Shown: one piece after another, positions 32,561 through 39,845 of the stretch
Numbering within the stretch: the stretch's first letter is position 1
Layout of the letters: each line of letters starts with the position of its first letter
Source: Clostridiales bacterium
GTDB lineage: Bacteria > Bacillota > Clostridia > Oscillospirales > Oscillospiraceae
NCBI GenBank assembly: GCA_021202775.1
Contig: JAJQCJ010000082.1
Location: 1 to 52,988 of the forward strand
DNA: 52,988 nt
Reading direction: 5' to 3'
Notes under the pieces: model-generated
What the model was told of the DNA's origin: nothing
What the model saw: the letters and a program-made list of their open reading frames with translations, nothing else
Databases searched by the model: none
Made by a program: the position numbers and the translations under genes

Positions 32561-32634
32561 CGAAACCGCTTCCACCATAACCGGATACAAACCATATGCA
32601 TTGCGGGCAAGACGCCCCGGGAAAGGAGCCTATT

Positions 32635-34404
32635 ATGGTCGATTTGAAAGCCAACCCCTACTACCTCTCTGACGAAGACATCAAGTGGGTGGAGGACACC
32701 ATCGCCTCCATGTCCGACGAGGAAAAGGTGGGCCAGCTGTTCTTCCAGCTGACGGAATCTCAGGACGAGGCCTATCTGAAAAAGCTGATGGAGAAATACC
32801 ATCTGGGCGGCTGCCGCTACAACGGTATGCCCGGCAAGAAGGTGCAGGAGCAGAACTACATCCTGCAAAGCTATGCCAAGGTGCCCATTTTCATCGCCTG
32901 CAACACCGAGGCCGGCGGCGACGGCGCCTGCTCGGACGGCACCGCCATCGGCTCTGGCGTGAAGATCGGCGCCACCGGCAAGGAGGAGTATGCCTACGCC
33001 CTGGGCAAGATGTCCAACGAGGAGGCGGCAGCCATCGGCTGCAACATGGCCTTCGCCCCGGTCTGCGACATCGCCTATAACTGGGAGAATACGGAGATCA
33101 TCACCCGCGCCTTCGGCAACGACCCGGAGCGGGTGGCCAAGATGAGCGCCGCCTATGTCCAGGGCGCCCACACCATCCCCGGCTTTGCCTGCGCCGCCAA
33201 GCACTTCCCCGGCAACGGCCAGGACTTCCGGGACGTCCACCTGTCCAACAACGTCAACTATTTTGACGTAGACCAGTGGGATTCCACCTATGGCCTGGTC
33301 TACAAGACCCTCATCGACAACGGGCTGGACGCCATCATGGCCGGCCACATCATGCTGCCCAAGTACGTTAAGGCCATTAACCCCGACCTGAAGGACGATG
33401 ACATGATGCCCGCCACCCTCAGCCCGGAGATCATGAAGGGGCTGCTGCGGGACAGGCTGGGCTTCAACGGCATGGTGGTCACCGACGCCTCCCATATGGT
33501 GGGCATGACCGACCGTATGACCCGGAAGGAAATGCTCCCCCGCTGCATCAACGCAGGCTGTGATATGTTCCTGTTCTTCAACGACCCGGATGAGGACTTC
33601 GGCACCATGCTGGCCGCCTACCAGGACGGCACCATCAGCGAGGCGCGGATGACGGAGGCCCTGACCCGCATTCTGGGCCTGAAGGCCCATCTGGGGATGC
33701 ACAAAAAGACAGTGGATGAGCTGGTTCCCTCCCTGGAGACGGTGGAGGCCACCCTGGGCAAGGCGGAGTACAAGGCCATGCACAAGGCCATCAGTGAGGA
33801 CGCCATCACCCTGGTGAAGTACAAGGACAAGGATGTGTTGCCCATCACGCCGGAGCGCTACAAGCGCATCATGATCGTCCACATCAAGGCAGCGGAGGGC
33901 GGCATGAGCGTCCTGATGAAGCTGCTGGGTGCGCCTCCCAAAAAGAGCGCCGCCGAGGTGCTGCGGGACAAGCTCATCGAGAAGGGCTTCGACGCCTTTA
34001 TCTATGAAAGCCCCATCGACAAGATCAAGAAGCAGATCGAGGCAGGAGAGCAGCCCAGCCTGAACATTTACTTTGCAGGCAAGAACGCCATTGCCGACTT
34101 TGTCAGCGGCCAGGATCTGATCATCTCCCTCTGCGACGTGTCCAGCGGGCGGCCGGTGTTCGGCCTGTCCAAGGGCGGCGGCGAGATCCCCTGGTATGTG
34201 TTCGAGCTGCCTGTGGTGGCCGTGGGCTGCGGCCAGCCCACCATGCTGGCGGATATCCCCCAGGCCCGCACCTATATCAACACCTACGACGCCAGCAGCG
34301 ACACCTTCGACGCCCTCATCGACGACCTGATGACCGGGCCGGAGGCCTTCAAGGGCAGCGACCCCATCGACAGCTTCTGCGGGCTGTTTGACGCGCGGCT
34401 GTAA
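32635..34404 (+). CDS. Glycoside hydrolase family 3, beta-N-acetylhexosaminidase-like
   Basis: 589 residues, no signal peptide, so probably intracellular. The N-terminal TIM-barrel has KHFPGNGQDFRDVHLSN (the NagZ-type loop with an Asp-x-His dyad) and GMVVTDASHMVGM (candidate nucleophile Asp). The C-terminal part (about 400-589) is an alpha/beta domain ending LCDVSSGRPVFGLSKGGG and FELPVVAVGCGQPTML. The His of the usual KHFPGHG is replaced by Asn. Start ATG 32635 follows GAAAGGAG. Likely function: trimming of N-acetylhexosamine or related beta-glycosides; substrate uncertain. Confidence 0.85.
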   Translation: MVDLKANPYYLSDEDIKWVEDTIASMSDEEKVGQLFFQLTESQDEAYLKKLMEKYHLGGCRYNGMPGKKVQEQNYILQSYAKVPIFIACNTEAGGDGACSDGTAIGSGVKIGATGKEEYAYALGKMSNEEAAAIGCNMAFAPVCDIAYNWENTEIITRAFGNDPERVAKMSAAYVQGAHTIPGFACAAKHFPGNGQDFRDVHLSNNVNYFDVDQWDSTYGLVYKTLIDNGLDAIMAGHIMLPKYVKAINPDLKDDDMMPATLSPEIMKGLLRDRLGFNGMVVTDASHMVGMTDRMTRKEMLPRCINAGCDMFLFFNDPDEDFGTMLAAYQDGTISEARMTEALTRILGLKAHLGMHKKTVDELVPSLETVEATLGKAEYKAMHKAISEDAITLVKYKDKDVLPITPERYKRIMIVHIKAAEGGMSVLMKLLGAPPKKSAAEVLRDKLIEKGFDAFIYESPIDKIKKQIEAGEQPSLNIYFAGKNAIADFVSGQDLIISLCDVSSGRPVFGLSKGGGEIPWYVFELPVVAVGCGQPTMLADIPQARTYINTYDASSDTFDALIDDLMTGPEAFKGSDPIDSFCGLFDARL

Positions 34405-34460
34405 GGACGATTCAGTTCTCCCAATATTCGCCCGGCATTAGCTCTCCTTGGATGAGGCAG

Positions 34461-34743
34461 GATAAAGGAAATACGTTTTGCCCTTGCCAGGGCGGGGCCT
34501 ACTTTTCTTGCTTCGCCAAGAAAAGTAGCAAAAGAAGGCGGCTCAGGAGGGGCCGCTGTGCGTCCCCTCCTAAGGGCCTCCCCTTTGTCCCACCGGCGGC
34601 TCCGCCTTGTCCCTCAATCAGGTGGTCTGTCAGGCAACAGACGATGTGACTTGTTACGCACCAAAGCTGCCGCCGATGGCGGCTGGCAACGATTGCTGCC
34701 TTGTCCCTCGCCTTCGGCGGGACGGGCGGCAATTTTATGGTCC
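34461..34743 (+). repeat. Structured dispersed repeat, copy 1
   Basis: About 283 bp similar to 38401-38680 in the same orientation. Shared blocks: a 13-nt start (GATAAAGGAAATA), a 49-bp identical core (34639-34687) and a 24-bp identical end (34715-34738). Hairpins: a 12-bp perfect stem (34499-34510 with 34517-34528), an 11-bp stem with one mismatch (34542-34552 with 34564-34574), GCCGCC/GGCGGC in the core and a 9-bp terminal stem (34692-34700 with 34725-34733) followed by TTTAT. It fills most of the gene-free gap between the GH3 gene and spoIVA. No transposase. Confidence 0.85.
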
Positions 34744-34824
34744 TTTGGTCGTGGAAATCTGACTGTCCCACCACGGTTTGCTTCTAACGAAAGGATAGAT
34801 TGCATCTTAAGTTAGCCAAAGATT

Positions 34825-34865
34825 ACGCCCCTCACAATGCGGCTTCGCCGCGCTGTGAGGGGCGT
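34825..34865 (-). terminator. Hairpin downstream of spoIVA
   Basis: A 12-bp perfect stem (34825-34836 with 34854-34865) with inner GCGGC/GCCGC pairs. The minus side continues AATCTTT, the plus side TTCGTTTTCC. Probable terminator of the sporulation operon, possibly in both directions. Confidence 0.7.
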
Positions 34866-34877
34866 TTCGTTTTCCTG

Positions 34878-36356
34878 TCACAGGATGATGCAGATCAGCC
34901 CGCCGCTGCCCTCGTTGATGATGCGCTCCAGCGTCTCCCGCAGCTTGCTGCGGGCATCCTCCGGCATCCGCATGAGCTTGCCCTGCAGGTCCTCGTTCAC
35001 CAGCTCGTGAAAGCTCTTGCCGAAGATGTTGGACTCCCAAATCTTCCGGGTGTCCCCCTCGAACTCGGACAGGAGGTAGTTGATCATCTCCTCCGACTGC
35101 TTCTCGCTGCCCACGATGGGGGAGATCACCGTCTCAATGTCCGCCCGCAGCATATGGATGGAGGGGGCGCTGGCCTTCAGTTTCACCCCGTAGCGCCCGC
35201 CCTGGCGGACGATCTCCGGCTCCTCCAGGCTCAGCTCGTCAATGGTGGGGATGACGATGCCGTAACCGCTCTCCCGCACGTCGGCTAGCGCCTGGGAAAC
35301 CTTGTCGTACTCCGCCTTCACCGCCGCCAGCTGGGTCAGCAGGTCCAGAAGGTCGCCGTCGTCCCCGATGGTGAAGCCGGACTGCTGGCTCAGGGTGGCG
35401 TAGAACAGGCTCCGGGGCACGGAGATCTGCACCTGCACCACGCCGGTACCCAGATTCAGCTGGGTCAGGCTGGCGCTGCTGACGGAGGGGCAGCTCTCCA
35501 GAGCGCTGACCGCCCCCTGCACGCTGCTGATGCGCCGGAGGGAGGCCCCCTGCTGGCGGATGGCGGTATATAGCTCCTCCTTGATGGGGTGGCTCACCGG
35601 CAGGGCGTCCACCCAGGGGGGCAGGAACAGGTCCATCTCCCGCAGGGGGAACTCATACAGCACCGCCCGGATGATGTTGGTGATATCCCGCTCCTCCAGC
35701 ATCAGGCAGTTCACCGCAAGGCAGGCCACCCCGTACCGGCTCTCGATGTCCGCCCGGATGGACTCCGCCCGGGGGGAGGTGGGCTCGTCGCTGTTGAGCA
35801 GCACCAGGAAGGGCTTTCCCAGCTCCTGCAGCTCCCGGATGGCCCGCTCCTCCGGCTCCAGATAGTCCTCCCGTGGAATCTCGGTGATGGTGCCGTCGGT
35901 GGTCACCACAATGCCGATGGTGGAGTGCTCCGCAATGACCTTCCGGGTGCCGATCTCCGCCGCCTCGGTCATGGGAATCTCGTGGTCGTACCAGGGGGTG
36001 GTGACCATCCGGGGCTGGTCGTCCTCCATCTGCCCCGCCGCCCCGTTCACCAGGTAGCCCACGCTGTCGATGAGCCGGACGGAGAAGTGGGCGCCACCCT
36101 CCAGCTCCAGCACCGCCGCCTCCTCCGGGATGAACTTGGGCTCCACCGTCATCACCGTCCGGCCGGAGCCGCTCTGGGGCAGCTCGTCCCTGGCCCGCTC
36201 CCGGCGGTACACGTTGTCGATGTTGGGGATCACCAGCGTCTCCATAAACCGCTTGATGAAGGTGGATTTCCCCGTCCGCACCGGCCCCACCACGCCGATG
36301 TAAATATCGCCGTCGGTGCGCCGGGCGATGTCCTCATACAGCTTTTCCGTTTCCAT
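34878..36356 (-). CDS. spoIVA: Stage IV sporulation protein A, coat basement ATPase
   Basis: Polymerises around the forespore on ATP hydrolysis and forms the platform for the spore coat. 492 residues, the usual size. Walker A GPVRTGKS (24-31), a TRAFAC-like GTPase fold with DSVGYLVNG and LLNSDEP, a middle domain, and the conserved C-terminus ending GGLICIIL, which contacts SpoVM in Bacillus. It lies 12 nt after sipL, whose product binds SpoIVA in Clostridioides. Mother-cell (sigma-E) expression is expected from the family; no promoter was identified between the two genes. Confidence 0.97.
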   Translation of the reverse strand: METEKLYEDIARRTDGDIYIGVVGPVRTGKSTFIKRFMETLVIPNIDNVYRRERARDELPQSGSGRTVMTVEPKFIPEEAAVLELEGGAHFSVRLIDSVGYLVNGAAGQMEDDQPRMVTTPWYDHEIPMTEAAEIGTRKVIAEHSTIGIVVTTDGTITEIPREDYLEPEERAIRELQELGKPFLVLLNSDEPTSPRAESIRADIESRYGVACLAVNCLMLEERDITNIIRAVLYEFPLREMDLFLPPWVDALPVSHPIKEELYTAIRQQGASLRRISSVQGAVSALESCPSVSSASLTQLNLGTGVVQVQISVPRSLFYATLSQQSGFTIGDDGDLLDLLTQLAAVKAEYDKVSQALADVRESGYGIVIPTIDELSLEEPEIVRQGGRYGVKLKASAPSIHMLRADIETVISPIVGSEKQSEEMINYLLSEFEGDTRKIWESNIFGKSFHELVNEDLQGKLMRMPEDARSKLRETLERIINEGSGGLICIIL

Positions 36357-36368
36357 ACTGCCCCTCCT

Positions 36369-37892
36369 TCACCGCTTCCGGGGAATCAGCAGCAGCTGCC
36401 CCGCCTGAGGCGTCTCCTCCTCCATGCCGTTGGCGTCCATGATCTCCTGCCGGGTGGTGGAGTAGGTCTTGGCGATCTGCCACAGGGTCTCCCCTGCCCC
36501 CACCTGCCGCAGTACAATGGAGGGCTGCCCCTCAGTGCTTCCCCCGCCGGTCTCCTCCACCGTCAGGGCCGTCACCACCAGGTCCGGCTGCCGCTCCAGC
36601 AGCATCAGGTGGAAGGCCACCGCCGCCCGCAGCTCCAGGCCGCCGCCGGTCTCCACTGCGTCCACCCGCTCCGGCAGCGCGGTGAAGCGGCACTCCGCCC
36701 CCTCCCCTGCCGGAACGCGCACCGTCACCGTCAGCTTCCGGGACAGGGCGTCATACCGCCCCTCGGCCTCCTGCCAGGTGACGCTCACAACGCATTGGGC
36801 GGAGAGGAGCAGCTGCCCCTCCTCCCGCACCGCGCTGTTTTCCGCGATGAGAAGGGCGGTATCGCAGATGCGGCGCACCTGGCCCACGGACTCCACCAGC
36901 GCCCGCTCCGACTGGTGCAGCACCTCCTGGCGCACCAGCTGGGACAGATAGACCCGCTCCACCCTGGGCTGGGTGGCATAACCGGTGCTGTAGGCATCGC
37001 TGAGGAGGGTCAGCTGCCGGGTCTCGCTGACGATGGCCTGGGCCAGCAGCTCCAAATCCAGCTCCAGCGTCCGCCCGTCCAGGGAGGGCCGGCTCAGGTT
37101 CCAGTCGGTCACCAGCAGCTCCAGCTGAAAGACCGCCTGCTCCGGCGCGGCGGGCACATCCAGCACCTGGGAGAGGGGCAGCTCAAACTCCGCCTCCTCC
37201 GTCTCCCCCTCCGGGGTGCGGTAGAGGAGCCGCACCGACGCGCCGCCCTTGAAGATCAGCTTTCCGCCAACCACCCGGGCCTCCCCGGAGAAGGGCTCGC
37301 AGCGAAGGCGCAGCACCTCGTCCATGTCCGGTTTGCTGCCGGGCAGCACCAGGTCGTCGGAGACGCTGAAGGCCCGCTGGGCGTACTCCAGGGCGAAGCA
37401 GCCCTCCCGCCGGGTCAGCAGCTGCTGGATTTTCCAGGTGTCCGGGTCGGCAACGCCGCAGGCCAGGGCGCAGCGCCGCGTCCGGCTGACCTGCACCTCG
37501 ATGGCGACCCCCACCCGCACCAGCACCTTCCGGGGGTTGACGGTGCGGGTCTCCGCGAAGGTCACTCTGGGCACGGCAAAGATGCCGCTGTCCGGGGTGA
37601 TGCCCTCCTGCTCCGCGGTGCAGCGGAAGTCCAGCTCCGTCTCCAGCGCCCGCAGCCCCTGCCAGTTCTCCGGCTGGTAGAGGATGCTGCACCGCACCGT
37701 CCCGCCCAGCAGCACCGTCCCCGCGTCCGCCTCCCGCTGCCGGAGGCAGACGTGGGCCTCGGTGTTCAGCACGGTGTCAATATCCGGGCAGGCGTCCGGC
37801 ACGATGGTCTCCAGCGTCTCCTCCCGGGTCAACACCGTTTCCAGCACCGTTTCACAGTATTGAAACCCGTTGTCATGTAATTCCAGTTCCAA
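36369..37892 (-). CDS. sipL: SipL, SpoIVA-interacting coat morphogenesis protein
   Basis: 507 residues. Two or more SPOCS/DUF3794 domains (for example ETIVPDACPDIDTVLNTEAH and DDLVLPGSKPDMDEVLRLRC) are followed by a C-terminal LysM domain (QVGAGETLWQIAKTYSTTRQ, about 460-505). In Clostridioides difficile the LysM domain of SipL binds SpoIVA. Start is TTG 37892, 8 nt after AAGGAG; the upstream TTG at 37919 lacks a site. A hairpin CCTGCGGC/GCCGCAGG (about 37908-37928) sits just before it. Adjacent to both spoVM and spoIVA. Confidence 0.92.
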   Translation of the reverse strand: MELELHDNGFQYCETVLETVLTREETLETIVPDACPDIDTVLNTEAHVCLRQREADAGTVLLGGTVRCSILYQPENWQGLRALETELDFRCTAEQEGITPDSGIFAVPRVTFAETRTVNPRKVLVRVGVAIEVQVSRTRRCALACGVADPDTWKIQQLLTRREGCFALEYAQRAFSVSDDLVLPGSKPDMDEVLRLRCEPFSGEARVVGGKLIFKGGASVRLLYRTPEGETEEAEFELPLSQVLDVPAAPEQAVFQLELLVTDWNLSRPSLDGRTLELDLELLAQAIVSETRQLTLLSDAYSTGYATQPRVERVYLSQLVRQEVLHQSERALVESVGQVRRICDTALLIAENSAVREEGQLLLSAQCVVSVTWQEAEGRYDALSRKLTVTVRVPAGEGAECRFTALPERVDAVETGGGLELRAAVAFHLMLLERQPDLVVTALTVEETGGGSTEGQPSIVLRQVGAGETLWQIAKTYSTTRQEIMDANGMEEETPQAGQLLLIPRKR

Positions 37893-38002
37893 GGCACAAT
37901 CTCCTTCCCCTGCGGCCAAAAGCCGCAGGACTGTTTATACAGGCGCAGCCCTCCGGCCGTGCCCGGTATAAGACATCCTATGCCCTGTCCCGGAAGGTTA
38001 TG

Positions 38003-38095
38003 TCACCCCGCTTCCTTCCTGACGTTCTTCATATGGAACAACCGGCGCAACAGGCCGGACAGCACCTTTGGCGAACGGATGATCACGATCTTCAC
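38003..38095 (-). CDS. spoVM: SpoVM-like amphipathic sporulation peptide
   Basis: A 30-residue peptide that should bind the convex forespore membrane and anchor SpoIVA. It begins MKIVIIRSPKVLSGLLRRLF, matching SpoVM in length, the MK start, Pro at position 9 followed by Lys, and the amphipathic helix; Bacillus SpoVM begins MKFYTIKLPKFLGGIVRA. Start GTG 38095 has GGAGGT 6 nt upstream. It lies in the same operon as sipL and spoIVA, which strongly supports the call. Too short for routine gene prediction. Confidence 0.85.
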   Translation of the reverse strand: MKIVIIRSPKVLSGLLRRLFHMKNVRKEAG

Positions 38096-38112
38096 ACTCT
38101 CACCTCCCCAGG

Positions 38113-38259
38113 CTACGGCCCCTTCATCCAGGTGACCCCTAAGACGATCAGCGCCACCCCGGTACAAAAGATGATGACGCTGACCGGCAGCACCATAGCC
38201 AGCAGCACACCAACCCCCAGCCCGATGAGGCACTGGCCCCATTTCTTACAGCGGCGCAA
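38113..38259 (-). CDS. Short membrane protein upstream of spoVM
   Basis: A 48-residue protein: a short basic N-terminus (RRCKKWGQ) followed by two hydrophobic stretches (LIGLGVGVLLAMVLP and VIIFCTGVALIVLGV) and WMKGP. Start TTG 38259 has GGGAGG 8 nt upstream. It ends 17 nt before spoVM. I do not recognise a family; the location suggests a sporulation membrane protein. The start is moderately sure, because a strong hairpin overlaps its ribosome site. Confidence 0.5.
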   Translation of the reverse strand: MRRCKKWGQCLIGLGVGVLLAMVLPVSVIIFCTGVALIVLGVTWMKGP

Positions 38260-38264
38260 GAAAA

Positions 38265-38308
38265 CCGCCTCCCCTCTTCCGCATGGTTCAATATACGAGG
38301 GGAGGCGG
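38265..38308 (-). promoter_or_regulatory. 12-bp inverted repeat covering a ribosome site, or terminator
   Basis: CCGCCTCCCCTC and GAGGGGAGGCGG (38265-38276 with 38297-38308) are perfect complements with a 20-nt loop. On the minus strand the 3' arm contains the GGGAGG of the 48-residue gene and is followed by TTTTCTTG. It may hide the ribosome site or act as a terminator. Confidence 0.6.
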
Positions 38309-38400
38309 CGAAATGTGCCAGGTGGATAGGATTTTGTGGGGGCAATCCCCCAGGGCAATGTCATCAAATGGAAGGGGGTTCCTTTCCTTAGGCAAGGATT

Positions 38401-38680
38401 GATAAAGGAAATAAGTGCTTGCCCTCCGGGCGGGCCCCATTTCTTGCTCCGCCAAGAAATGGGGGAAAGAAGGCGGCTTAGGGGGACGCTCGGGGCCTCG
38501 CTCCCCCCTAAGAACCCCTCTCCTATCCCGCTGGGGCTTCGCGCTGTTCAGCCCATAGGTGGTCTATCCCGTTAGAGACGATGTGACTTGTTACGCACCA
38601 AAGCTGCCGCCGATGGCGGCTGGCGGGGATTGCCGCCACATCCCAGCCTGACGGCGGGACGGGCGGCAATTTTATTGTCC
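38401..38680 (+). repeat. Structured dispersed repeat, copy 2
   Basis: Second copy of the element at 34461-34743. It keeps the 49-bp core (38576-38624) and the 24-bp end (38652-38675). Its stems are 38435-38446 with 38453-38464 (12 bp perfect), 38477-38485 with 38504-38512 (9 bp perfect) and 38629-38637 with 38662-38670 (9 bp perfect). The stems hold although many paired bases differ from copy 1. Together with the inverted repeat at 38265-38308 it fills the gene-free gap 38260-38743. Confidence 0.85.
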
Positions 38681-38743
38681 AACGACAGATAACATCTGCC
38701 TGAACCGCAAAGTCACAATTCCGAATCAAAAAGCGCAGTTTCT

Positions 38744-39181
38744 TTATCCTTCCACCATCTCAGCCTGGAAGAACAGCGCTTCCGTTACATTGAGAAAGGT
38801 ATCCTCCTCCTTGATGGCATGGGCTTCGCCCTTCCACCAGACCGTGTCCCGGTTGGCGGAGACAGCGACTGTTTCGCCGGTGGCCATGTCATAGGTAATG
38901 GTCACCAGCGGTTCGCCCTCTGCGTCCGCCTCCGAAAAGAGCTCGTATTTCAGGAATCCGGACAGTTGGATGGCAAGTTCGATGTCCTCCTCCCGGGTCA
39001 GCACCTTCTCCTCCTCTGTGACGGCCGGGTATGCAATCGTGACCTGCTGAACCTCCTCCGCGGCCGGTATGCCGATGAGGTACATCCCTTCCGACCCTAT
39101 CCTGTACGCCATGACAAACGCGGTGCCCAGCAGCGTGCCAACCAGAATACCCACCACTGTTTGAAGCCATCTTCTCTTCAT
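38744..39181 (-). CDS. Membrane-anchored hypothetical protein
   Basis: 145 residues. MKRRWLQTVVGILVGTLLG is an N-terminal anchor or signal peptide; the rest is a small acidic domain with segments LIGIPAAEEVQQVTIAYPAV, EDIELAIQLSGFLKYELF and VTITYDMATGETVAVS. No family recognised. GGAGGAGG precedes the ATG at 39181. It follows thiN by 22 nt and is probably the last gene of the housekeeping cluster. Confidence 0.65.
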   Translation of the reverse strand: MKRRWLQTVVGILVGTLLGTAFVMAYRIGSEGMYLIGIPAAEEVQQVTIAYPAVTEEEKVLTREEDIELAIQLSGFLKYELFSEADAEGEPLVTITYDMATGETVAVSANRDTVWWKGEAHAIKEEDTFLNVTEALFFQAEMVEG

Positions 39182-39203
39182 CTGCGTTTCCTCCTCCGAT
39201 TCC

Positions 39204-39845
39204 CTAAAACTGCGGCACGCTCCGCACCAGCAGGGCGCACCCCGCCCCAATGGAAAGTTCCGCCGGGCCGCCGGGCAGAATCTCATTGCTGACGGTCAGC
39301 GTCCCCCCTCTGGGGACATCCACCCCATCCAGCACATACTTCGTCCCGTGGATGGAGACGTTTTTCAGCACCCTGTCCAGGGGCAGCAGGCCCAGGTACC
39401 GGTAGGGCGGGTCGCTACGCACCACCGTCCGCCCGGCGGTGAGATAGCGAATCTCGTTCATCTCGTCCACCAGCAGACCCCGGCCTCCCCGGTCATGAAT
39501 CTGCTCCAGCAGGCAACAGTTGGACAGATAGTGGTCAAACCGTCCACCGGTGCAGCCGGTCAGCAGCAGCTCGTCACAGCCCAGCCGGAAGGCCAGCGAA
39601 ATGGCGGCCTCCAGGTCAGTGACGTCCTTCTCCTCCGGCAGCACCACCGACTCCAGCCCCTCCGGCCAGCCGCCGGAGTCGCCGTCCCCCACGTACCGGT
39701 CAGGGGTCAGCCCGGCGGCCTGGGCCTGCCGCCTGCCGCCGTCCGCCGCGATGACCCACTCCCCGCCCTGCAGGTAGCGGGTCAGAAAGCCCCAGTCTTT
39801 ACAGGGGGCGGAGCCGAAGATTACCGCTCGTTTGCTTGTTTTCAT
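39204..39845 (-). CDS. thiN: Thiamine pyrophosphokinase
   Basis: Transfers pyrophosphate from ATP to thiamine, making the cofactor TPP. 213 residues. N-terminal RAVIFGSAPCKDW, VIAADGGRRQAQAAGLTPD, VGDGDSGG and LPEEKDVTDLEAAI, then TGCTGGRFDHYLSN, are the TPK catalytic motifs. ATG 39845 was chosen because AGGAGG is 7 nt upstream. It follows rsgA as in other Firmicutes, although the rpe gene usually found between them is absent. Confidence 0.93.
   Translation of the reverse strand: MKTSKRAVIFGSAPCKDWGFLTRYLQGGEWVIAADGGRRQAQAAGLTPDRYVGDGDSGGWPEGLESVVLPEEKDVTDLEAAISLAFRLGCDELLLTGCTGGRFDHYLSNCCLLEQIHDRGGRGLLVDEMNEIRYLTAGRTVVRSDPPYRYLGLLPLDRVLKNVSIHGTKYVLDGVDVPRGGTLTVSNEILPGGPAELSIGAGCALLVRSVPQF

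Follow-up and report, generated by a model that had tools for sequence, protein, structure and literature searches.

What is the sequence that occurs twice in this Oscillospiraceae contig, and is the fold suggested by its paired base changes really maintained? The window, that is the whole stretch of 52,988 nucleotides analysed here, carries related segments at 34461-34743 and 38401-38680 (76.6% in a BLAST comparison). From these two copies alone, an earlier note had deduced a conserved fold and had proposed either a non-coding RNA or a mobile sequence of the MITE or REPIN type.

The two copies in the window

The reported details were recovered exactly. The identical 49-bp core lies at 34639 and 38576 and the identical 24-bp stretch at 34715 and 38652. 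Copy 1 has the stem-1 arms CTACTTTTCTTG/CAAGAAAAGTAG, copy 2 has CCCCATTTCTTG/CAAGAAATGGGG, and all three differences between them are compensated (T-A to C-G, A-T to C-G and T-A to A-T). In stem 2 an A-T to G-C change is compensated and the C.A mismatch of copy 1 is a T-A pair in copy 2, while a U.G pair of the last stem becomes C-G. The coordinates originally given missed the ends of the element: the left end repeat of copy 2 begins at 38354-38356, 247 nt upstream of the core. The features of both copies are as follows.

34442..34813, + strand: copy 1 of the element (5' unit of the CTCCTTGG type, modules A and B, core, terminal hairpin, decayed right end)
within 34442..34813, + strand: decayed right end of copy 1, ..TTGCATCTTAAGTT, by our reading of the sequence
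34499..34542, + strand: copy 1 module A
34499-34509 and 34518-34528, + strand: 5' and 3' arms of S1, copy 1 module A
34513-34517 and 34537-34541, + strand: 5' and 3' strands of S2, copy 1 module A
34531-34536, + strand: third strand AAAGAA, copy 1 module A
34542..34584, + strand: copy 1 module B (purine arm 34542-34552, pyrimidine arm 34564-34574)
34577-34584, + strand: mirror third strand CCTCCCCT, copy 1 module B
34664..34685, + strand: copy 1 core hairpin, GCTGCCGCC-GAT-GGCGGC
34692..34733, + strand: copy 1 terminal hairpin, ATTGCTGCC...GGCGGCAAT, then a T run (from the sequence and the aligned copies)
38356..38373, + strand: decayed left terminal inverted repeat of copy 2, CAATGTCATCAAATGGAA (end-repeat scan, 4 mismatches)
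38374..38680, + strand: copy 2 body
38435..38476, + strand: copy 2 module A
38435-38445 and 38454-38464, + strand: 5' and 3' arms of S1, copy 2 module A
38449-38453 and 38472-38476, + strand: 5' and 3' strands of S2, copy 2 module A
38466-38471, + strand: third strand AAAGAA, copy 2 module A
38445, 38454 and 38471, + strand: covarying positions, copy 2 module A
38477..38522, + strand: copy 2 module B (purine arm 38477-38487, pyrimidine arm 38503-38512)
38515-38522, + strand: mirror third strand CCCCTCTC, copy 2 module B
38601..38622, + strand: copy 2 core hairpin
38629..38670, + strand: copy 2 terminal hairpin, ATTGCCGCC...GGCGGCAAT, then TTTTATTG (from the sequence and the aligned copies)
38675..38751, + strand: right side of copy 2, a CCAACG-type end with a remnant of the central spacer known from inverted pairs

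The orthologous locus of a close relative (L111) carries a longer version of this right side. For copy 1, a scan allowing up to 5 mismatches gave no end repeat.

Copy number and distribution

A core-pattern search of the genome (a 2.52-Mb draft) detected 94 copies, and the reversed control pattern matched nowhere, which puts the repeat well beyond chance. Each of six further genomes of the same genus contains 56-109 copies, so that 7 of the 32 genomes examined in the genus are carriers. In other genera of the family, one of 342 sampled genomes gave a single weak match. Distant blastn searches of plasmid and phage collections yielded no match to the element; in viral contigs the core pattern was not matched exactly, and the end repeat had one match (L288), where no transposase was recognised by eye among the enclosed frames. 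Among the genomes sampled, the element is thus restricted to part of one genus.

The 207 rows used below as copies represent 204 distinct ones, after removal of two chance core matches (L114 and L163) and of a locus entered twice (L111 and L260, on the same contig); they comprise all 94 copies of the genome itself and samples from the six other carriers. By our estimate the element makes up about 1-1.5% of the genome (94 x ~0.3-0.4 kb in 2.52 Mb, truncated copies being counted whole).

Ends, target duplications and a candidate transposase

Inverted ends of 18 bp, CAATGTCATCAACTTAAG, were found at fixed offsets and bound 25 intervals of 218-719 bp, 22 of which contain the core (377-719 bp). These intervals are therefore too short for a transposase of 427 codons such as the one described below. 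Many copies lack one end or both. A 10-bp target duplication with at most one mismatch flanks 9 of the 25 intervals (4 perfectly), compared with a mean of 1.78 after shuffling of the partners; a 9-bp duplication was seen in one interval and duplications of 7, 8 or 11-14 bp in none, leaving 15 intervals without a recognisable 9-10-bp duplication. One site shared by two genomes (L193 and L261) has no duplication. The preferred target is palindromic (CCTTTCAGG/CCTGAAAGG): the motif adjoins 46 of 102 distinct ends on their outer side, compared with 129 of 20,000 random 14-mers, and the 10-bp duplication is also present in 3 of 9 intervals without a palindromic target. The element is present here and absent from the equivalent site of a close relative, L111 being empty of copy 1; no duplication could be read there because the junction is not clean. 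Inverted ends at both termini, duplications of constant length, the lack of a transposase of their own and the many copies support the assignment of the copies with both ends to the MITEs, i.e. non-autonomous transposons, one of the types first proposed.

A transposase fragment beside such ends in G127 (L297) matched nothing in plasmids, phages, NCBIfam or viral contigs but, used as a query, led to a locus of a related genus (L319). In this locus an IS4-family transposase (427-codon frame; NF033592, 176 bits; PF01609) lies between ends GGCAATGCTGTCAACTTAAG that match those of the element at 17 of 20 bases (3 of 20 differ), the right IS end being cut by the locus edge. Matches came from 3 of 399 genomes, the other two (L320 and L321) being other proteins. 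The ends of the element also fit the pattern -AATR--------WTW tabulated for the IS4 subgroup, and its 10-bp duplication falls within the 10-13 bp range given there (PMC2266710, table). The element is thus like the IS4 subgroup in its end pattern, duplication and related transposase-bearing IS, but contains no transposase. A PF01609 search of six carriers (all but G012) returned six places, none with ends of this type when up to 6 mismatches were allowed, and hence no autonomous partner. An IS4-type enzyme would mobilise the elements in trans.

Other bacterial MITEs (Correia/NEMIS, ERIC and RUP among others), as presented in PMC2229807, are likewise non-coding and primarily intergenic, with terminal inverted repeats, a foldable body and, in several families, a target duplication. 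At 377-719 bp for the core-bearing intervals, the present element is longer than the ~100-200 bp MITEs described there and, unlike them, it consists of modules that each occur in several alleles and shows pseudoknot-like pairing and third-strand covariation.

The hairpin arms covary

Arm-to-arm pairing was analysed in 43 distinct stem-1 modules from the seven carrier genomes and two named contigs. For the 11 pairs left free by the search pattern, 97.8% of the cells were paired, compared with 85.6% after shuffling (a value reached in 0 of 500 shuffles) and with 28.3-73.1% in slid registers; the figure rises to 98.5% when the five pattern-fixed pairs are included. Double changes numbered 67 against 20.0 in shuffled sets. 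One of five measures was less clear, the number of further pair types (17 versus 14.8, reached in 29 of 500 shuffles). With so small a number of alleles, there are few independent events.

The body of the element is built as a mosaic: its hairpin modules, each with several alleles, are reassorted among copies, and module swaps were seen at an orthologous site in close genomes. As whole modules are exchanged in this way, two copies alone were too little to count as direct evidence of a fold. The fold itself was upheld by the many-copy tests on arms and third strands, which go further than the initial claim. These comparisons of alleles support the view that the hairpins are maintained. The reassortment, which may proceed by gene conversion or recombination between copies, leaves both arm-arm pairing and third-strand agreement intact.

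A third strand agrees with the duplex in modules A and B

In module A, three positions (y, r and t) read T-A..A or C-G..G in 148 of 150 modules. The strict pattern used fixes TTTCT, AGAAA and AAAGA and allows C/T at y and A/G at r and t; the covariation of module A is therefore carried by a single triple position. A looser pattern with the three letters free gave 150 of 152 in agreement and no further letters at y, r and t. The 150 modules come from the 207 rows (149 if the beginning of module B is required as well, 151 in the column-pair ranking); among the 57 other rows, 17 are cut by contig ends and the rest have different 5' modules or do not fit the pattern. Association between r and t is nearly complete (V 0.99) but low between r and the outer arm (V 0.18), so that the y, r, t agreement holds across an outer stem whose alleles combine with it almost freely. 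Within G020, taken by itself, inner positions and outer arm are linked (V 0.61 over 18 modules). When variable columns 4 or more apart are compared pairwise, r-t ranks third. S2 pairing is kept across CCGCC/GGCGG, TCGTC/GACGA and TCGCC/GGCGA, and the y-r pair and t are located at the predicted S1/S2 junction, positions that are also compatible with an H-type pseudoknot. Two folds may be envisaged for module A: a purine-type triplex, or a CCGCC/GGCGG pseudoknot that has a base triple at its junction.

In module B (156 of 207 rows), the pyrimidine tract is a mirror of the 3' arm, with z 9.5 in this register and at most 2.1 in any other. Where the arms disagree, the third strand sides with the 3' arm in 36 cases and with the 5' purine arm in 5. 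Linkage alone would give this result, which is not what a triplex built around the purine arm predicts best. Watson-Crick pairing of the third strand with the 5' arm was considered and rejected (mean longest match 4.9 versus 5.6 for the parallel complement in 51 unique pairs), a modest difference compared with that of the register test. Module B would form a hairpin with a parallel pyrimidine third strand.

Both the pseudoknot-like pairing and the third-strand covariation had escaped the earlier note. That hairpin arms and third strand are kept matched suggests that an unusual three-strand fold is maintained, in which one strand would fold into a hairpin plus a third strand.

DNA fold, RNA fold or no selection

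A DNA-level intrastrand triplex or cruciform, in which the strand folds back twice during replication, transposition or supercoiling, in the way suggested for triplex motifs of bacteria, and promotes module exchange or blocks a polymerase, comes near to an even chance in our judgement. The hairpin with a mirror third strand in modules A and B and the in situ exchange of modules between close genomes argue for it. According to PMC4666352, purine-type triplexes cannot form in RNA, and classical triplexes of the + strand in both modules would therefore be restricted to DNA. However, the loops (~8 nt in A, ~8-11 nt in B) exceed the 1-6 nt limit of the ITxF search described in the same paper, and the 5' purine arm of module B shows the least agreement with the other two strands.

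We regard it as rather unlikely that the body is a structured RNA (an H-type pseudoknot with a junction triple, hairpins and a terminal hairpin with a U run) which is transcribed and influences either the mRNAs next to it or its own element, mobility being incidental. This reading draws on S2 pairing kept through three allele pairs, on the y-r pair and t at the predicted junction and on the influence on adjacent mRNAs reported for MITE RNAs in PMC2229807. Against it, Rfam gave no match in the window at gathering score, the best permissive matches being far below it, and neither copy has a promoter-like site in a simple sigma-70 scan. Terminator-like sites lie in the 5' part of each copy, with none at the terminal hairpin; a further one at 34850-34865 is past the end of copy 1. 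If the + strand acted as RNA, G.T would be expected to be better tolerated than A.C. Among unique alleles, the G.T to A.C ratio is nevertheless 5:44 in module B and 3:9 in the terminal hairpin (rows roughly aligned), with 3:3 in S1 and 5:2 in S2 of module A. Mean folding energy is alike on both strands (-140.9 and -143.4; 80 of 175 copies). Judged by the pair changes, the + strand does not stand out as an RNA.

It is improbable that the fold is under no selection at all, templated repair equalising the arms and modules spreading as linked blocks. Block-wise movement of few alleles, the many copies with identical arms and a module B third strand that follows the adjacent 3' arm are in line with this, but a mirror (same-strand, reversed) third strand is, to our knowledge, not a product of arm-templated repair, and linkage hardly explains a V(r,t) of 0.99 across an outer arm with a V of 0.18. 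A REPIN moved by a RAYT (Y1) transposase, as also proposed at first, hardly deserves credence: hairpins, high copy number and inverted pairs would suit it, but the long inverted ends and 10-bp duplications do not, and of five carriers searched G000, G006, G016 and G011 had no Y1 match and G020 had one.

Discussion

With good confidence, we explain the element as a high-copy modular MITE that would be moved in trans by an IS4-family transposase and whose fold is kept. As single-stranded or supercoiled DNA, or less probably as a transcript, the fold would be of use to the element or to its recombination. BOX and bcr1 elements are modular or structured repeats with mobile-element traits in different hosts, and we know of no third-strand covariation in them.

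A structural parallel is provided by the intrastrand triplex motifs of bacteria (BoxC/PIT/TM; Holder et al. 2015, PMC4666352), which, like the present element, combine a hairpin arm with a one-strand mirror third strand and are described there as reaching high copy in some genomes with few or none in close relatives. In the present element, the third strand mirrors an arm in module B (z 9.5), and in module A one variable position agrees (148 of 150). It differs from these motifs by its longer loops, its carriage on a MITE and its covariation; the main text of PMC4666352 reports the E. coli motif without a transposon link and does not contain the string "covaria". In the open-access literature searched, we found neither triplex covariation nor the present MITE family.

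Triplex-forming motifs are common in bacterial genomes and may be maintained by selection in cells. With about a hundred recombining copies in each genome and several alleles of every strand, the element supplies natural mutants, and selection on a third strand is therefore directly testable. An IS4-type MITE has been amplified to ~1-1.5% of the genome in only some species of one genus. We tentatively propose, at somewhat less than even probability, that this mobile element has a single strand kept as a base-triple fold, with a third strand covarying with the duplex in two modules. It would then offer comparative evidence that an intrastrand triplex or triple-bearing pseudoknot forms and matters in living bacteria, where it may drive the shuffling of alleles among transposon copies.

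The two copies and their genomic context

Copy 1 of the repeat occupies 34442..34813 (+). Copy 2 comprises a left terminal inverted repeat (38356..38373) and a body (38374..38680, +) made of modules A and B, the core and a terminal hairpin. Neighbouring genes are:

32596-34404, + strand, GH3-family gene, on one side of copy 1
34878-36356, - strand, spoIVA, on the other side of copy 1
36369-37919, - strand, SipL/LysM-domain gene; copy 2 lies beyond it, past small open frames as well
38744-39286, - strand, open frame without known Pfam family, after copy 2

The identities claimed in the earlier note are present (49 bp at 34639/38576, 24 bp at 34715/38652), and the compensated changes that it named are correct when read on the sequence.

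Copy number and distribution

The core was detected 94 times in the own genome, G000 (≤3 mismatches; reversed control, 0). The search of relatives that the earlier note had proposed matched 14 of the 32 genomes of the genus. Seven carriers hold 56-109 copies (G000 94, G006 109, G010 59, G011 107, G012 56, G016 82, G020 89) and seven further genomes have 1-2 matches each, some of which may reflect chance; the control pattern gave one match in the 32 genomes, in G024. A family-wide draw of 350 genomes spanning 106 genera, 8 of these genomes belonging to this genus, yielded six with a match: five from the genus and one from another genus, the latter by a lone match with one mismatch. No element match was found in the plasmid and phage collections searched. 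Of the 94 core copies in G000, 18 begin within 300 bases of a contig's start (e.g. C3, C55, C101, C103). The assembly is therefore probably broken up by the repeat, and true copy numbers may be higher than those counted.

Among 80 named relatives of the spoIVA locus, one copy each was found in L111 and L113 (SpoIVA 99% and 98% identical), and two partial matches, both to the element's 5' part, in L115 (96%). No copy was detected within the stretch available for L112 and L114 (98% and 97%), whose contigs stop before the copy-2 site; the L113 contig also stops short of it.

The repeat is a MITE

The end sequence GGCAATGTCATCAACTTAAG has 72 sites in the own genome (≤3 mismatches; control, 0), many at fixed offsets from the core: either some 250 bases upstream or, inverted, some 141-181 downstream. 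We examined 25 intervals with inverted ends on both sides, the core being present in 22. A 10-bp direct repeat (≤1 mismatch) flanks nine of the 25, four perfectly, and a 9-bp repeat flanks one; repeats of 7, 8 or 11-14 bp flank none. Partner shuffling gave 1.78 expected 10-bp duplications, because the targets resemble one another; the duplication was also seen in three of the nine intervals without the palindromic target, once perfectly (TGTGCAGGAT, L068). The 25 intervals include two nested ones of L110 and one site counted in two genomes (L193, L261), all without duplication. Directly outside 46 of 102 distinct ends we found CCTTTCAGG or CCTGAAAGG (≤1 mismatch), a target motif present in 129 of 20,000 random 14-mers from own-genome loci.

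In G339, from another genus of the family, a 427-codon open frame between ends GGCAATGCTGTCAACTTAAG encodes an IS4-family transposase (NCBIfam NF033592, 176 bits, cut-off 115; also PF01609); its left flank, CCTCCCTCACTGAGG, resembles half a palindrome and its right flank is cut off. No insertion sequence with such ends was found in the six carriers searched. Because draft metagenome assemblies frequently drop multi-copy elements, this negative result argues only weakly for absence. Among 300 genomes drawn, the end repeat also occurred in genomes of two other genera (g97, g12), with palindromic flanks at most loci read. The element's ends and duplication length agree with those of the IS4 subgroup, as tabulated in PMC2266710. 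Together, the inverted ends, the 10-bp duplications and the IS4-family element with similar ends bear out the earlier suggestion that the repeat is a MITE; its REPIN alternative is not supported, a Y1/RAYT transposase match having been found in one (G020) of the five carrier genomes searched.

In G127, a genome of another genus, GGCAATGTCATCAACTTAAG ends with palindromic flanks lie near contig ends (L289, L297, L303, L308, L313) and probably represent collapsed insertion sequences; in L297, an open frame resembles the C-terminal part of a transposase. At L103:2022-2239, a 218-bp element without the core combines the same inverted ends with different palindromic modules (CTCCCCTTTCAGGGGAG type); cargo thus varies between elements that share these ends.

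A modular body, with probable exchange of modules

In aligned copies each hairpin has discrete alleles, combined in many ways. Some copies are joined to unrelated 5' modules, and inverted pairs of copies occur about 110-120 bp apart. Several copies (L046:547-1209, also L040 and L045) have another 5' module, about CCGGCTAAAAATGTGC...GGACGCCGTAAATTACTCCGCC, in place of module A's first arm. Inverted pairs in the own genome (L033, L047, L089, L097) share an A/T-rich centre, with a CCTTTGG-type end on one partner and a CCAACG-type end on the other. At L019:1380-1490, tandem copies of a roughly 50-bp 5' unit (CTCCTTAG..AAGG..GCCC) stand upstream of the element.

An insertion also occupies the copy-2 position in L111, with flanks 97.0% identical on the spoIVA side (3,336 aligned bases) and 90.6% on the other (552). 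There, module B and the adjoining stretch belong to a different allele (element identity 89.8%, 55 gap columns). In L113 (flank 91.3% identical over 3,329), the element at the copy-1 site has module A replaced whole, outer stem together with all three inner positions; the remainder aligns with scattered differences (88.2% overall). Either modules were swapped in place or the sites were independently filled by different copies, the second being less likely for copy 1 because the rest of that copy matches.

Module A: pairing and a covarying third strand

Module A comprises stem S1, a predicted pseudoknot helix and a candidate third strand. Covariation, for which the earlier note wanted a statistical test, was scored in 43 distinct sequences over five pseudoknot pairs and the six S1 pairs unfixed by the search pattern, one of the latter in the 15 longer sequences only, owing to a gap. 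Paired cells reached 97.8% vs 85.6% after shuffling (28.3-73.1% in slid registers), and cells changed on both sides 67 vs 20.0; further pair types numbered 17 vs 14.8, 29 of 500 shuffles reaching 17. In 150 intact modules the pseudoknot helix is CCGCC/GGCGG (124), TCGTC/GACGA (10), TCGCC/GGCGA (7) or contains a G.U or mismatched pair (9).

The top S1 pair (y-r) and the base immediately preceding the pseudoknot strand (t) covary as T-A..A (81) or C-G..G (67), with 2 others among 150 modules; with these three letters left free in the pattern, 150 of 152 agree. Although the outer 3' arm sits between r and t, it assorts almost independently of both. Over 149 modules, Cramer's V is 0.99 between r and t, 0.18 between r and the outer arm, and 0.16 between t and the outer arm (0.95, 0.15 and 0.11 on 43 unique modules). 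Per genome, r-outer arm V is 0.30 (G000), 0.23 (G006) and 0.26 (G016), with G020 as an exception (0.61, 18 modules). After APC correction r-t ranks third (202 variable columns, 151 copies, pairs ≥4 columns apart).

Module B: a mirror tract

The tract after the module B hairpin reads as the 3' arm backwards at 160 of 182 positions (26 unique allele pairs), whereas 20,000 shuffles averaged 124.8 and never exceeded 143. In a set of 42 unique longer pairs, z is 9.5 for the mirror register and between -4.1 and 2.1 for the nine other registers and directions tested. Where the arms disagree, the tract matches the 3' arm in 36 cases, the 5' arm in 5 and neither arm in 2. That it follows the 3' arm speaks against a simple triplex, and block inheritance would give the same.

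DNA or RNA as the folding molecule

Read on the + strand, module A would form a purine-type and module B a pyrimidine-type triplex. Purine-type triplexes cannot form in RNA, according to PMC4666352, so classical triplexes in both modules would need DNA, which we tentatively put forward as the folded form. The earlier note named a non-coding RNA as one possibility; as RNA, module A would adopt a pseudoknot carrying a junction triple. Departures from pairing do not favour a + strand transcript: G.T-type vs A.C-type counts are 3:3 and 5:2 for the two stems of module A, 5:44 for module B and 3:9 for the terminal hairpin (unique alleles, which are not independent). We retain RNA as a possible, less likely folded form.

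Relation to known elements

There are precedents for MITEs, IS4 ends and intrastrand triplex motifs; searches of one open-access library returned no report of third-strand covariation on a recombining MITE. For the intrastrand triplex motif of E. coli, PMC4666352 reports no association with transposons, whereas here the motif rides on a MITE.
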